32,372 nt of DNA. Source: Tepidanaerobacteraceae bacterium (GTDB lineage Bacteria; Bacillota; Thermosediminibacteria; Thermosediminibacterales; Tepidanaerobacteraceae). The stretch covers positions 1-32,372 of the forward strand of contig JANLFP010000016.1 in NCBI GenBank assembly GCA_024655905.1, in the 5' to 3' direction. This document shows, in pieces, positions 1 to 18,290 of the stretch. Numbering within the stretch: position 1 is the stretch's first letter; every line of letters starts with the position of its first letter. Both the position numbers and the translations under genes were made by a program. The notes under the pieces were generated by a model, which searched no databases, was not told the origin of the DNA, and saw nothing but the letters and a program-made list of their open reading frames with translations.

Positions 1-40
1 TTCTGACTTCTGACTTCTGACCTCCGGCTTCTGCTTTTTG
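1..40. repeat. Edge of a dispersed palindromic repeat (CTGACTTC/CTGACCTCCGG type)
   Basis: The window opens with three near-tandem TTCTGAC heptamers followed by CTCCGGCTTCTG. The same vocabulary (CTGACCTC, GACTTCCGG, CCGACCTCTG) occurs beside hairpins at 4191-4275 and 16746-16830, so this is probably the right-hand arm of another copy whose centre lies outside the window. It is non-coding. Membership is inferred from short shared motifs only. Confidence 0.45.
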
Positions 41-4095: not shown

Positions 4096-4190
4096 ACTAT
4101 AGCCTCCCGTCAAAACAATTGCTTCTAAAACAAATATACAGTTTATATTTATCTTTATACTTCGCAGGAAAGGTCTCACAAGAGCCAGAT

Positions 4191-4275
4191 GCCGGAAGTC
4201 AAATATGGGCTTTAAGAGGAATTTGCAAGCCGCAAATTCCAGCAATCCCGACTTCCGGCCTCCGACCTCTGAATT
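4191..4275. repeat. Palindromic repeat element between argG and argH
   Basis: Nested inverted repeats: outer arms GCCGGAAGTC (4191-4200) and GACTTCCGGC (4250-4259) match perfectly over 10 bp, and the centre is a perfect 9-bp stem GGAATTTGC / GCAAATTCC (4218-4226, 4232-4240) with a 5-nt loop. It is followed by CTCCGACCTCTG. The architecture (9-bp stem, 5-nt loop, CCGACCTCTG tail) recurs at 16746-16830. It lies in the 298-bp gap between argG and argH and could form a hairpin in the operon mRNA. Confidence 0.75.
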
Positions 4276-4393
4276 GGTCATGTTCCAATGCCGTTTGTTG
4301 TCATCGGAAGTTAAACTTTCTTACCGCTTCTTGGCGCTCCCGGATTAATGAAGAGTTGTCTTGGATTGGTCGCATCCTTGTTGCAGAAAAATT

Positions 4394-11262: not shown

Positions 11263-12162
11263 CACATACTTTCCCGCTTCAACTGCGGCTATGGCTCCGT
11301 CGGCTACAGCGGTAACAACCTGGCGCAGCGGCTTTCGCCTGATATCCCCCGCCGCAAACAGGCCCGGCACGCCGGTGCCCATGTTTTCGTCGGTTATTAT
11401 ATAACCCTGTTCATCCAACTCAGCCAAATCTTTAACGAGCGATGTGTTTGGCACCCAGCCTATAGCCACAAAGATGCCGTTTACCGCTACCAGTGTTTTT
11501 TCACCGGTTTTAACATTTCTTAATATGATTTCTTCTACAGTTTCCCTTCCTTTAATCTCATCCACTGTCGAGTTCCATATAAACTTCATTTTCTCATTTT
11601 TAAAGGCCCTTTCCTGCAGGATTTTTGTTGCTCTAAGCTGATCCCTGCGGTGCACTACATATACGCTGCTGGCAAATCTGGAAAGGTACAGCGCTTCTTC
11701 AATTGCAGAATCTCCCCCTCCTACCATCATGACCGGCTTATCGGTGTAAAAGGCTCCGTCGCAGGTGGCACAGTAAGATACTCCACGGCCGGTATATTCC
11801 TTCTCGCCCTTCACCCCCAGCTTTCTTGACTCGGCACCCATGGCCAAAATGACAGCCTTTGCTTCCAGGGTCTCACCCTTTAACTGAATGACAAATTTTT
11901 CATCCCTTTTTTCGATATTCGATGCTTCACCATTCAGGAATTCAGCCCCAAATTTTTCCGCCTGAGATTTCATTTTGTCGGTGAGCTCAGCGCCCGCTAT
12001 ACCTTCATTGAAACCCGGGTAGTTTTCAATGCGGTCGGTGATAGCCGCCTGACCTCCGGGATACATTTTCTCAACCACAACCGTGGACAGCTTCGCTCGG
12101 GCGGCATATATGCCTGCTGAAAGCCCCGCCGGGCCGGCCCCGATAATAGCAACATCGTACAC
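11251..12162 (-). CDS. trxB: Thioredoxin reductase, NADPH type
   Basis: This flavoenzyme passes electrons from NADPH through FAD to thioredoxin. The 303-residue product has the low-molecular-weight TrxB layout: FAD-binding GAGPAG (8-13), the redox-active pair CATC (131-134), the NADPH site GGGDSA (148-153) with HRR (171-173), the usual 2'-phosphate clamp, and the C-terminal FAD motif AAGDIR. HRR argues for NADPH rather than the ferredoxin-dependent variants seen in some clostridia. The start is GTG at 12162 with GGAGG seven bases upstream. It has its own promoter, and no thioredoxin gene is adjacent. Confidence 0.95.
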   Translation of the reverse strand: MYDVAIIGAGPAGLSAGIYAARAKLSTVVVEKMYPGGQAAITDRIENYPGFNEGIAGAELTDKMKSQAEKFGAEFLNGEASNIEKRDEKFVIQLKGETLEAKAVILAMGAESRKLGVKGEKEYTGRGVSYCATCDGAFYTDKPVMMVGGGDSAIEEALYLSRFASSVYVVHRRDQLRATKILQERAFKNEKMKFIWNSTVDEIKGRETVEEIILRNVKTGEKTLVAVNGIFVAIGWVPNTSLVKDLAELDEQGYIITDENMGTGVPGLFAAGDIRRKPLRQVVTAVADGAIAAVEAGKYVESL

Positions 12163-12205
12163 AAATATTCCTCCATTTCCTATACTTATATTAAATTATA
12201 TAAAT

Positions 12206-12234
12206 ATAATAATATATCCCTGCTTGTTTTTCAA
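12206..12234 (-). promoter_or_regulatory. SigmaA-type promoter of trxB
   Basis: Minus strand TTGAAA (12229-12234), a 17-base spacer and TATTAT (12206-12211), within a very AT-rich tract 45-70 bp upstream of the GTG start. Confidence 0.65.
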
Positions 12235-12525
12235 ACCTTAATCCTTATTATATCCTTATCCCAACAGTGTTAAAATCTTATATTGATTAAATCTCACAAA
12301 ATCTTTCCATATATCAGCGAGTCTTTCTTTATCATTATCATTCTATTATTTCTTTTTATTTTAATCAGCCACTTCTTTTTCATTTAGACCATCATTGCAG
12401 GAAGCAGGCGGCAGCGCCTGGAAAACTCTGTGCCCCTCAAAGTGCAGCCGCAAGCCCGAACATCAAGTTAAACGGCTGCTTCAATGTGATGATGCCTCCG
12501 GTTACTAAAACAATTTATTGGGTTT
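12235..12525. other. Intergenic region between rpsI and trxB with no clear gene
   Basis: AT-rich on the left, GC-richer at 12400-12480. On the minus strand around 12420-12520 a startless frame reads IVLVTGGIITLKQPFNLMFG before a stop after LAAAL, which looks like the end of a hydrophobic protein but has no start or ribosome-binding site. It may be a relic or chance. AGGCG/CGCCT near 12413-12425 forms a short stem. Confidence 0.3.
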
Positions 12526-12554
12526 TAAAAAAAAAGAAGGACTCTGTCCTTCTT
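12526..12554 (-). terminator. Rho-independent terminator of rplM-rpsI
   Basis: Directly after the rpsI stop codon, the minus strand has AAGAAGGAC-AGA-GTCCTTCTT followed by a run of T (complement of the A-run from 12527). Strong stem, tight loop and long T-tract. Confidence 0.9.
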
Positions 12555-12944
12555 TTACCTCTTTGAGAACTGCGGAGCGCGGCGGGCTTTCTTGAGGCCG
12601 TATTTCTTGCGTTCTTTCATCCGTGGGTCTCTAGTCAAAAATCCTTCTTTTTTGAGCACCGGTCTGAATTCGCCATCTATTTTCAAAAGAGCCCTGGCAA
12701 TGCCGTGTCTCACGGCACCGGCCTGACCCGTAAAGCCGCCGCCCTTTACGCTGGCTATGACATCGAACTTGCCAGCCGTGTTTGTTGCTTCCAGAGGCCT
12801 TTTAACATCCACTCTCAACGTCTCGAGGCCGAAGTATTCATCCATTGGTTTTCTGTTGATTATTATTCTCCCGCTGCCCGGCATTATCCAAACTTTGGCA
12901 ACGGACGTCTTCCTTCTCCCTGTAGCGAGAACTGCCTGTTTCAT
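12555..12944 (-). CDS. rpsI: 30S ribosomal protein S9
   Basis: S9 (129 residues) binds the 3' major domain of 16S rRNA in the head of the small subunit. Its basic C-terminal tail, ending [12 protein letters not shown], reaches the P-site tRNA, and the final SKR is the universally conserved end. The N-terminal signature [10 protein letters not shown] and the central [19 protein letters not shown] segment are typical. The ATG at 12944 has an AGGAGG-type site close upstream. Second gene of rplM-rpsI, 18 bp after rplM, and followed at once by a strong terminator. Confidence 0.97.
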
Positions 12945-15002: not shown

Positions 15003-15858
15003 TGCCCTTCCTCCTTATGGCTTTCAAAATCTCCGTCCTGGCTTCTTCCACCGTCAATATATCGCACGCCACGTCTTTGCCCTTTTCCCGCAGCTTCATC
15101 ATCAGTTCGGTTATCTGTGGTATGCCCAGGCCAACTGATGTAAGACCTCTGTAATCCCTGAAAATTTCTCGCGAAGAACCCTGTTTTATCATTTTTCCCC
15201 GGTGCATCACAGCAATCTTGTCAACAAGCCTCGCTATATCTTCCATGCTGTGGGATACAAGTATAACCGTTATATTTCGCTTCTTCCTCAGCGCTACAAT
15301 TTCTTCGATGATCTCGTCCCGCCCCAGCGGATCAAGGCCAGCCGTGGGTTCATCAAGAATAAGCACTTCCGGATTCATGGCTAGCACTCCTGCTATGGCC
15401 ACTCTGCGCATTTGGCCTCCGCTCAATTCAAACGGAGATTTGTCCTTAACGGCATCATACGGCAGACCCACCAGTTCTATGGCTTCCTTTACCCTTTTTG
15501 CTACTTCATCTTCCGGAAGCCCCATGTTTTTCGGCCCGAAAGCCACATCTCTTTCAACCGTTTCTTCAAAAAGCTGGTGTTCCGGGTATTGAAATACCAG
15601 GCCTACTTTTTGCCGGATTTCTTTCATTCGGGCTCCTCTTGCATGAAGGTTCTCGCCGTCGATTATAATCTCGCCGGACGTGGGCTTCAAAAGGCCGTTG
15701 AGGTGCTGGATGAGAGTGGACTTCCCGGAGCCAGTGTGCCCTATTAAGCCCCAGAATTCTCCATCCGCAATCTCCCAGTTTATATCTTTAATAGCTATAG
15801 ATTCAAAAGGCGTCCCCGGCATATATATATGCGTGAGGTTTCTTACAACAATTGACAT
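14995..15858 (-). CDS. ecfA2: Energy-coupling factor transporter ATPase EcfA2
   Basis: One of the two ABC ATPases of the ECF module. Residues show Walker [10 protein letters not shown] (40-48), Q-loop Gln in [10 protein letters not shown] (about 90), signature LSGGQ (145-149), Walker B LILDEP (166-171) and the switch histidine in LVSHSMED. The product is 287 residues. The Q-loop region EHQLFEETV is typical of the A2 (A') subunit. ATG at 15858 lies inside the end of ecfA1 (16-bp overlap), and the 3' end overlaps ecfT, so the three genes are tightly coupled. Confidence 0.95.
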
Positions 15859-16673
15859 AAAAAGTCCACCATCTCTTCCACTGTCAGTAAATCGGGCCTT
15901 ATTTCCACGCCTGCTCGTTTCAGCTGATGTGCCAGCTCGGTCACCTGCGGGACATCCAGCCCTATGCTTTTCAGCTTTTCAACTCTGGAGAACACCTGCC
16001 TTGGAGTGCCTTCCATGACCAGTCGGCCTTTCGACATAACAAGCACTCTGTCCGCCATAACCGCCTCGTCCATGAAATGTGTTATAAGGACAATCGTCTT
16101 TCCCTCTTCTCTGTTGAGTTTTTTTACGGTTTTTATTACCTCTTTTCTACCGACAGGGTCGAGCATGGCGGTGGGTTCATCAAGTATTATGCATTGCGGT
16201 TTCATGGCCAGAATCCCAGCTATGGCAACCCTTTGCTTCTGCCCGCCGGACAGGAGATGCGGGGCTTTATGGGCATATTCCGTCAGTTCCACGGCTTCCA
16301 GAGCCTGCCGTACGCGGTTGCGTATCTCCGCCGGCTGAATTCCTAGGTTTTCGGGCCCGAAAGCCACATCTTCCTCAACAACGGTGGCGACAATCTGATT
16401 GTCCGGGTTCTGGAAAACCATGCCGGCTTTTTGCCTCACTTTCCAAATGTCTTCCTGGTTGGCGGTATTCAAGCCATCCACATAGATTTCACCTTTTGTC
16501 GGCGCGAAAATGCCGTTGAGGAGTTTCGCCAGTGTGGATTTCCCCGAACCGTTAGGTCCTATTATGGCTACAAATTCGCCTTTATTGATGGCAAGGTTTA
16601 TATCAATTAAAGCAAGACTTTTATCCTGAGCATATTGATAGCATACGCCCTTGGCGATGATTTCGGCGGTCAA
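15843..16673 (-). CDS. ecfA1: Energy-coupling factor transporter ATPase EcfA1
   Basis: Partner ATPase of EcfA2. Walker [10 protein letters not shown] (39-47), Q-loop [21 protein letters not shown] (about 87-105), signature LSGGQ (141-145), Walker B ILDEP (163-167) and the H-loop ITHFMDE are all intact in 276 residues. The [14 protein letters not shown] segment is characteristic of EcfA1. The apparent start is TTG at 16673, five to ten bases after AAAGGGGGCGG. It is the first gene of the ecf-truA unit and is separated from rplQ by a 320-bp repeat-filled spacer instead of the short gap usual in relatives. Confidence 0.94.
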
Positions 16674-16745
16674 CGATGCCGCCCCCTTTACAAATTATGC
16701 CTATTTATGGGGACATTCCTCAGCCTACCCCTATATCGGAAGCTA

Positions 16746-16830
16746 GATGTCAGAATTCGGATGTCGGAATTGAGGGATTTGCCTTTTCGGCAAATCCAAC
16801 TTAATCTGACCTCTGAACACCGACCTCTGC
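16746..16830. repeat. Palindromic repeat element nested in the rplQ-ecfA1 spacer
   Basis: The centre is a perfect 9-bp stem GGATTTGCC / GGCAAATCC (16775-16783, 16789-16797) with a 5-nt loop, flanked by CAGAATTCGGATGTCGGAATT on the left and CTGACCTCTGAACACCGACC on the right. Same layout as the element at 4191-4275. It appears to interrupt a copy of the neighbouring 69-bp repeat: the flanks 16831-16857 and 16708-16733 match that repeat's two ends. Confidence 0.7.
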
Positions 16831-16831
16831 T

Positions 16832-16991
16832 AAAAGGAGGTGTGTCCCCTAACACTTCCATTGGGGACATTCCTCCGCCTACCCCAGAGGAATACCCTTG
16901 AAAAGGAGGTGTGTCCCCTAACACTTCCATTGGGGACATTCCTCCGCCTACCCCAGAGGAATACCCTTGAAAAGGAGGTGTGTCCCCTAAC
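16832..16991. repeat. 69-bp tandem repeats downstream of rplQ (2.3 copies plus an interrupted copy)
   Basis: Units at 16832-16900 and 16901-16969 are identical over 69 bp; a third start runs 16970-16991 up to the rplQ stop. Each unit carries an internal inverted repeat, GGGGACA..CCTCC against GGAGG..TGTCCCC in minus-strand reading, so each could fold as a hairpin. The frames across it (69 is divisible by 3) encode repetitive peptides without any ribosome-binding context, so coding is unlikely. No T-tract follows, so these are not ordinary terminators. Confidence 0.85.
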
Positions 16992-16993
16992 CT

Positions 16994-17326
16994 TTATACC
17001 AGCTCCATTACTACCATGGGAGATGAATCTCCCCTGCGCGGACCTATTTTTACGATGCGAACATACCCGCCTTTTCTTTCCTGATATTTTGGAGCAACTT
17101 TGTCGAAAAGATTTTTGACAGTGGTTTCATCCAGCACTTCCGCCAGCACCATTCGTCTTGCCGCTAAATCGTTCCGCTTCGCCAGTGTTATCATTTTTTC
17201 TGCAATCCTGCGGACTTCCTTTGCCCGGGTCTCCGTGGTAATTATTCTTCCGTGCTTAAAAAGCGATGTAACCATGTTTTTGAGCATCATTTTCCGGTGA
17301 CCGGTTGGTCTGCCCAGTTTTCTCAT
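16994..17326 (-). CDS. rplQ: 50S ribosomal protein L17
   Basis: L17 lines the base of the large subunit near the tunnel exit. From the ATG at 17326 ([14 protein letters not shown]) it is 110 residues, close to the usual 112-120. Its start follows AGGAGGG by seven bases; an in-frame start eight codons earlier lies over the Shine-Dalgarno region and is rejected. It is the last gene of the alpha-operon part, 13 bp after rpoA, and is followed immediately by the 69-bp repeats. Confidence 0.96.
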
Positions 17327-17339
17327 CTTCTTGCCCTCC

Positions 17340-18290
17340 TTAACTGTCATCCGATTGTTTCAGCGCCAGATTGAACGCCGCCAGCTTTTCTTCCACTTCT
17401 TCCAGCGATTTTCTGCCCAGATTCCTGACCTTCATCATGTCTTCCGAGGACCTCTGAATGAGTTCCTGAATTGTATTTATACCGGCTCTTTTCAGGCAGT
17501 TGTAAGACCTCACCGATAGATCCAGTTCTTCTATGGGCATTTCCAGTATCTTTTCCCTGTCGTCCTTTTCCTTTTCCACAGGTATTTCAGGGCTTTTCAC
17601 TTTAGTCGTCAAGCCTACGAACAGGTTGAAGTGCTCTATCAGAATTTTCGCTGCAGCGCTCACGGCATCATCGGGTTTTATGGTGCCGTTGGTCCATACT
17701 TCAAGTGTCAGCTTGTCATAATCCGTCCGCTGCCCTACGCGCGTATGCTCCACCGAAAAGTTGACCTTATGCACGGGAGTGAATATGGAATCTATTGCAA
17801 TTACACCTATGGGCTGATTCGGCTTCTTGTTCCTGTCCGCAGTCACATAGCCCTTGCCCTTTTCCAGAGTCAGCTCCATGAACAATCTGCCGTCTTTATC
17901 CAGCGTGGCGATATGATGTTCCGGATTAACAATTTCCACATCCGCATCGGTGATTATATCCCCGGCTTTTACCTCGCATTCGCCGCTGGCCTCGATTCTC
18001 ATAAGCTTTGGTTCGTCGCTGTGCATCAGTATGGACAGGCCCTTGATATTCATGATGATTTCCGTGGTGTCTTCCACAACACCCGGAATCGTTGAAAATT
18101 CATGCTGTACCCCTTCTATTTTTATAGAAGTCACAGCAGCTCCAGGTAATGATGATAAAAGTACACGACGCATGGAGTTGCCAAGGGTTGTGCCGTAGCC
18201 TCTTTCCAACGGTTCAACGACTACTTTTCCGTAAGTTTCATCCTCGCTTACCTCTACCAACTCAATCCTCGGCTTTTCAATATCCATCAT
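17340..18290 (-). CDS. rpoA: DNA-directed RNA polymerase subunit alpha
   Basis: The alpha dimer starts RNA polymerase assembly. The 316-residue protein has an N-terminal dimerisation domain (about 1-230, with [20 protein letters not shown]), an acidic linker rich in E, K and D (about 232-245), and a C-terminal domain (about 250-316) with helix-hairpin-helix repeats ([36 protein letters not shown]) that contacts UP elements and activators. Two adjacent ATG codons (18290 and 18287) follow AGGAGGG by 11-14 bases. Located between rpsD and rplQ as in other Firmicutes. Confidence 0.98.

Follow-up and report, generated by a model that had tools for sequence, protein, structure and literature searches.

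Nested small palindromic repeats of two dispersed families at the rplQ-ecfA1 junction of a Tepidanaerobacteraceae bacterium

The array A-A-A[B] between rplQ and ecfA1, in which A[B] denotes a copy of element A whose two arms flank element B, is a real and recurring structure that is ordinary in kind, being composed of small palindromic repeats. It is built from two families of small dispersed palindromes; A is probably a REP-like, non-autonomous mobile hairpin and A-A[B] a spreading composite. Unusual are the composite build, the conservation at rplQ-ecfA1 and, above all, the closeness of A to -10 boxes. The window, i.e., the whole analysed stretch of 32,372 nucleotides, is contig C7 of a 3.2-Mb draft genome with 37 contigs (G000). 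G001 belongs to the same genus, and G002 and G003 to the sister genus. Both rplQ and ecfA1, which flank positions 16674-16993, are located on the minus strand, along which rplQ, A, A, A[B], and ecfA1 are arranged in this sequence. The features are as follows:

16994..17350, minus strand: rplQ, encoding ribosomal protein L17 (TIGR00059, E 4.2e-44)
16929..16993, minus strand: element A, copy 1 (model R1, 93.6 bits), composed of the tag AGGTTA, a 56-bp imperfect hairpin GGGGAC...GTCCCC, and AAT
16860..16924, minus strand: element A, copy 2 (model R1 match), which forms a tandem with copy 1 (69-bp period, 100% identical)
16832..16855, minus strand: left arm of the third A, part of A[B] (repeat comparison and model R1)
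16734..16831, minus strand: element B, enclosed by the two arms of the third A (104.8 bits with model R2, match at 16739-16836; comparison with nest-free A and A[B] copies)
16706..16733, minus strand: right arm of the third A, part of A[B] (repeat comparison and model R1)
15843..16673, minus strand: ecfA1, encoding an energy-coupling factor ATPase, with a TTG start (TIGR04520, E 1.2e-122)
4179..4278, strand unspecified: second, stand-alone B of the window (model R2, 48.6 bits on the plus and 46.0 bits on the minus strand)

NCBIfam profiles confirmed rpoA, L17, and the ECF ATPases, and the closest named relative, judged by ecfA1, is a Tepidanaerobacteraceae MAG (89% protein identity). The final codons of rplQ including the stop, CTG GTA TAA, abut the first repeat. 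Two 69-bp units and a partial third one, described in the sequence-only reading, were recovered as 100% identical stretches at 16832-16900 and 16901-16969 and a 22-nt copy at 16970-16991. A separated right end is likewise present as a 24-nt copy (96%) at 16708-16731, and the arms of the third A, whose R1 match spans 16706-16855 and is split by the insert, enclose another palindrome. This palindrome had been placed at 16746-16830 and is slightly wider (B at about 16734-16831). The units do have inverted ends, and their 69-bp period is made up of a 56-bp palindromic unit and a 13-nt spacer. Model searches of the genomes bore out that a hairpin of one family lies within an array of another, both families being dispersed. 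Around the ecfA1 start codon (window 16650-16680), a sequence GGGGGCGG...CCGCC is conserved in the family, which, judged from its sequence, could fold over the ribosome-binding site. Half a B was found at window positions 1-31, the very end of the contig, and thus the contig may have broken in a repeat. The stretch behind rpsI (12162-12555) was examined because G003 carries, at its corresponding place, A plus a left part of A[B]; models R1 and R2 found neither A nor B in it.

Twenty A copies of the four genomes align without gaps over 65 columns. Their consensus comprises a tag AKGTWA, a 56-nt unit GGGGACRCACCTCC...GGAGGAAYGTCCCC with inverted ends of 14 bp (two mismatches), and mostly AAT. 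The stem consists of seven pairs, a fixed 2x2 mismatch, and five further pairs; 98.3% of the cells are paired in these 20 copies, and all double changes (8 cells) affect one pair, which is G-C vs A-U in 8 copies. Considering 38 sites, the tag positions A and G are occupied as in the consensus in 36 each, T and the last A in 32 each. Many copies of A are dispersed in intergenic positions; A nested in A also occurs (L006 and G003 C35:44144). The left arm CACCTCCTTT, found at window 16832-16855 and in other A copies, resembles the anti-Shine-Dalgarno end of 16S rRNA, so that the opposite strand carries the consensus AAAGGAGGTG.

With the covariance model of A, 16, 6, 13, and 16 matches (51 in total) were obtained at E 0.01 in G000, G001, G002, and G003, respectively, and none at E 0.001 in the 22 remaining genomes of the 26 analysed for the class. 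Among 398 evenly sampled Bacillota genomes, scanned with stricter filters and only 13 candidates scored per genome, 31 gave matches with an E value of at most 1e-4; leaving aside G000, G002, and G003, there were 28. Copies from 12 genomes with distant relatives have GGGGACACACC...GGAATGTCCCC with the same CA/AA mismatch in common, while the inner stem is variable and the loop length differs. In the phylum alignment, which was fitted to the structure, double changes occur at four of 12 pairs and 96.2% are paired. Due to these relatives across the phylum, A is regarded as the form that a wider REP-like superfamily takes in one lineage. In another Bacillota genome (G109 C17, L298 2566-2923), a relative of A is repeated in tandem six times with a period of 60 bp. 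Rfam gave no match above the gathering score in the window, and for 10 other loci only tRNA, SRP RNA, and fluoride riboswitch. The 320-bp region was without match in phages and plasmids, and the strict A pattern occurred in none of the viral contigs; a looser superfamily pattern matched four viral contigs, which were inspected around the match only.

Since four related genomes present filled and empty sites side by side, the target choice of A can be read directly. An exact TATAAT ends 2-9 nt before GGGGAC in 20 of 49 tabulated A copies, the chance per position being 0.6%. Counting one copy per site, TATAAT lies there in 16 of 38 sites, in 10 of these at exactly 6 nt, and 22 sites are without exact TATAAT at that place. 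Further upstream, each of 19 bins holds TATAAT in at most 3 of 38 sites, and on the right side of A each of ten bins in at most 2 of 38; the lack of an excess on the right indicates that the target hexamer is not duplicated. Positions -8, -9, and -10 before the hairpin, followed by the tag, are A/T in 38, 35, and 36 of 38 sites. Other targets were a terminator T-run, behind which A is located at rpoD (L105), and an antisense Shine-Dalgarno sequence next to A at metK (L103). The rplQ end of the window reads GGTATAA; in G002 and G003 it reads TGTATAG or GGTATAG. Outside the two genera, only one of 32 listed copies of A relatives has TATAAT there, thus the -10 preference is demonstrated for this clade only. 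Concerning target duplication, the left hexamer is not repeated, and the often degenerate right junctions are compatible with a duplication of 2-3 bp. At L086 around 1500-1600 (G002 C1:3126366), near copies of GCATAATGAGnTATAAT lie on both sides of A, so that a promoter -10 region seems duplicated across the element.

In all five alignable empty orthologs (L085, L088, L094, L090, and L208; L092 is not alignable there), TATAAT is already present, and the promoters were therefore not made by A. In textbook promoters, TATAAT occupies -12 to -7. Modelled on this spacing, the first G of the A hairpin would lie at about +1. Both points would also agree with the view that the preference reflects selection rather than targeting, i.e., that other insertions were lost and those at transcript starts were tolerated or useful. 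With 10 of 16 at 6 nt, the spacing appears more precise than mere tolerance of insertions in a 5' region would explain, and this explanation is considered rather doubtful. It is tempting to go further and to regard A, with more doubt than confidence, as a mobile hairpin aiming at sigma-A -10 boxes and placing its own stem-loop exactly at the transcription start; such an insertion would keep the promoter and give the transcript a new structured 5' end, a nested B would enlarge the hairpin, and A would form a -10-box-targeting branch of the Bacillota-wide REP-like superfamily. In a partial literature survey on nested or -10-targeting hairpins, no report of insertion behind -10 boxes was found.

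Inverted 14-bp ends with two mismatches, compact size, and intergenic spread would also suit a reading of A, together with B, as ordinary MITEs that belong to a DDE insertion sequence bearing inverted ends. Such an origin is improbable in view of the one-sided target, with TATAAT within 2-9 nt at 16 of 38 left sides vs 2 of 38 right sides and no target duplication seen, and of the right end AAT/AAC/ATT, which is conserved among the A relatives whatever the left target. An oriented entry without visible target duplication rather fits a single-strand (HuH/Y1-type) transposase. A mobile hairpin of this kind would enter beside A/T-rich targets, preferably a -10 box, its tagged end facing the target and no visible duplication being left, and would presumably be moved in trans by a putative transposase of the HuH/Y1 type. 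IS200/IS605 elements insert in fixed orientation 3' of a short A/T-rich target and produce no duplication. In its oriented insertion, its one-sided A/T target, and the absence of a visible target duplication, A resembles IS200/IS605 and REP mobilisation, whereas it is, unlike IS200/IS605, a single hairpin without a gene.

Genes with the domain PF01797, including relatives of REP-associated tyrosine transposases (RAYTs), were listed for 28 loci in 11 of 13 family genomes. Of three that were tested, one scored above and two below the curated cut-off. As mobiliser of A, RAYTs were discarded, as none of the 28 PF01797 loci is bounded by A ends; many family RAYT loci have their own ends, which are of the GGGGACGGTTCT type or contain GGGGAC in another form. 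In case of the RAYT-like genes at L020, L021, L108, L113, L109, and L122, the GGGGACGGTTCT ends are framed by short inverted repeats which differ per gene. IS200 was rejected as well, since its copies in G000 and G002 have unrelated ends; in G002, one A and such a copy are separated by about 1 kb. No Y1 transposase was detected in 538,239 bases (49 loci) around distant A relatives.

Like REP, BIME, and REPIN sequences, A is a short, imperfect, intergenic palindrome with a tag at one foot, which occurs singly, in tandem, and in clusters. It differs from REP elements in its tag, AKGTWA instead of GTAG or CGTC, its length of 56 nt vs 20-40, and its -10 box preference, and from the REPIN/RAYT system in that no RAYT is bounded by A, the RAYTs having their own ends such as GGGGACGGTTCT. 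REPs nested in other palindromes are reported in the available part of PMC3733652, in which the word Firmicutes does not occur. The accessible text of PMC3049150 describes the pneumococcal BOX, RUP, and SPRITE as modular or composite small repeats, transcribed as stem-loops, that insert into one another, and contains no description of a -10 box preference for them. A and B resemble these repeats, as far as they are described there, in being modular or composite and in inserting into one another; BOX and RUP make target duplications, whereas none was seen for A. TnGBS, ISLre2, and ISKra4 insert, by the partial accounts available, 15-17 bp upstream of -35, whereas A lies directly downstream of the -10 box and has no gene.

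The consensus hairpin of B (12 copies) is GGATTTGCC-GGCAAATCC, with arms of heptads (nGTCAGA and its complement). The B model gave 36, 15, 53, and 51 matches in G000, G001, G002, and G003, respectively, palindromic copies often being listed on both strands; in G000, at least 23 distinct places are found among the matches listed. Of the 26 class genomes, G009 was the only further one with a match, a single weak one, and 21 had none. B is situated between tRNA-His and tRNA-Gln in G000, G001, and G002 (L199 1501-1599, L181 135-233, and L187 1501-1597), and in a spacer (L180) beside a putative 5S rRNA. Further copies were noticed among tRNA-Ser genes (L018 and L194). This distribution suggests that transcribed spacers of stable RNA tolerate or use B.

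Within A[B], B is bordered by about 18 nt of A on the left and about 23 nt on the right, i.e., by the two arms of A; about 16 nt of the middle of A are missing, and no duplicated target was seen around B in the A[B] copies. The joints between A and B (left CTCCTTWTAGCAGAGGTC; right CCGATATA-GGGG) are much alike in the window, in the copy at uvrC (L002), and in the majority of the G003 composites. The union of both elements is probably old. The genome G003 was searched with A plus a left arm as query, which favours matches of A followed by A[B], and contains eight loci at which A precedes a complete or truncated A[B], in constant order, and a ninth with another insert. At five of the eight loci (L085, L088 upstream of an lspA-like gene, L094, L103, and L105), the whole composite is missing at the orthologous sites of other genomes. 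The orthologous site of L208 is empty; for L092, A and B are absent in other genomes, but the spacer aligns poorly; L090 corresponds to a single truncated A in G002 and an empty site in G001, and L098 to a single A in G002. The absence of the whole composite at empty sites indicates that A-A[B] moves as a unit, and the sequences compared support that the nest is not one local accident and that A-A[B] spreads as a composite.

A single, local, and simple insertion of B into one copy of A, as first supposed, thus does not hold, since A[B] occupies the same junction in both sister-genus genomes, B replaces about 16 bp of the middle of A without target duplication, and the order A then A[B] recurs at eight G003 loci. 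The reverse descent, with A[B] as parent and A as its deletion product, would agree with A[B] being the form shared at rplQ and with the region upstream of uvrC, where A[B] is found in G000, a plain A in G002, a remnant of the right end of A[B] in G003, and neither element in G001. It is unlikely, because the relatives in the phylum are A-like hairpins without B, and B is confined to G000-G003 and the weak G009 match. More probably, B is a second palindromic family that joined A early, A-A[B] then spreading as a composite.

The gene rplQ was located in 12 of 13 family genomes. Exactly behind its stop, G002 and G003 carry one A[B], and the two intact A units are the only feature of the array that is special to the window. 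The junction of G001 is a spacer of 107 nt without A or B, and the eight other family genomes have short rplQ-ecfA1 spacers. A comparison with empty junctions in relatives, suggested in the sequence-only reading, thus gave a divided result, the genome of the same genus lacking the nest and those of the sister genus carrying A[B]. Recurrence of both sequences elsewhere had been taken to speak for insertions and conservation over the whole family for a fixed element; both do recur, and the nested part is present in three and absent in nine of the 12 genomes.

The junction A[B] copies of the three species are 95.0-96.5% identical over 140-141 positions (94.3-96.4% counting gaps). Between the genera, rplQ is 83% and ecfA1 76-78% identical, with 47-62% in the wobble phase (window vs G002 and G003). 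In 60-column windows, A[B] and the short stretch to the ecfA1 start are 89-98% identical vs 60-91% around them. Full A[B] copies elsewhere reach at most 89% identity to the junction copies and lack the variants which the three junction copies share. These sequences argue either for a shared origin at this site followed by slow change or for an exchange limited to this short stretch; gene conversion or local exchange could be an alternative source of the high identity between genera. At another site (L173 in G002, L175 in G003), A[B] is 87-91% like the junction copies and each other, so that slow change is not special to rplQ.

The same site in three species, an identity that contrasts with the wobble phase of the adjacent genes, and the exclusive variants are also what a fixed cis-regulatory RNA of rplQ-ecfA1 would show, i.e., an attenuator or processing signal under selection with incidental mobility. 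The fold of the A[B] RNA points in the same direction (-59.4 kcal/mol, z -4.9 in the window; -63.7, z -5.1 in G002). However, A[B] is absent from G001 of the same genus and from eight other family genomes and stands at many unrelated loci, and the lack of A and B at the G001 junction indicates that the element is dispensable. A fixed RNA is hence regarded as unlikely. For mobile palindromes, the most likely course would be that A[B] reached the junction before the split of the two genera, that G001 has presumably lost or replaced it, and that two A copies were added in the lineage of the window, probably with a recent tandem duplication.

For a stretch of 296 nt, the predicted RNA fold surpasses those of all 200 shuffled sequences both on the minus strand (z -4.3) and on the plus strand (z -7.35). 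Within 16550-17150, neither an intrinsic terminator (stem then U-tract) nor a full promoter-like site was found. The proposed role of the array in read-through would be plausible. If there is any effect, a large transcribed stem-loop without U-tract may separate the ribosomal protein mRNA from the ecf mRNA as a boundary of stability or processing, which is conceivable at somewhat less than even chances; it is almost as probable that A[B] is a neutral passenger.

Small palindromic repeats are widespread, and their site choice and effects on transcripts are mostly obscure. If the proposed targeting is true, a hairpin that enters behind -10 boxes already in place would change the 5' ends of mRNAs in a single step. 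The conserved nested copy at rplQ-ecfA1 offers a natural test of whether a selfish hairpin has been recruited as a boundary inside the ribosomal protein superoperon.
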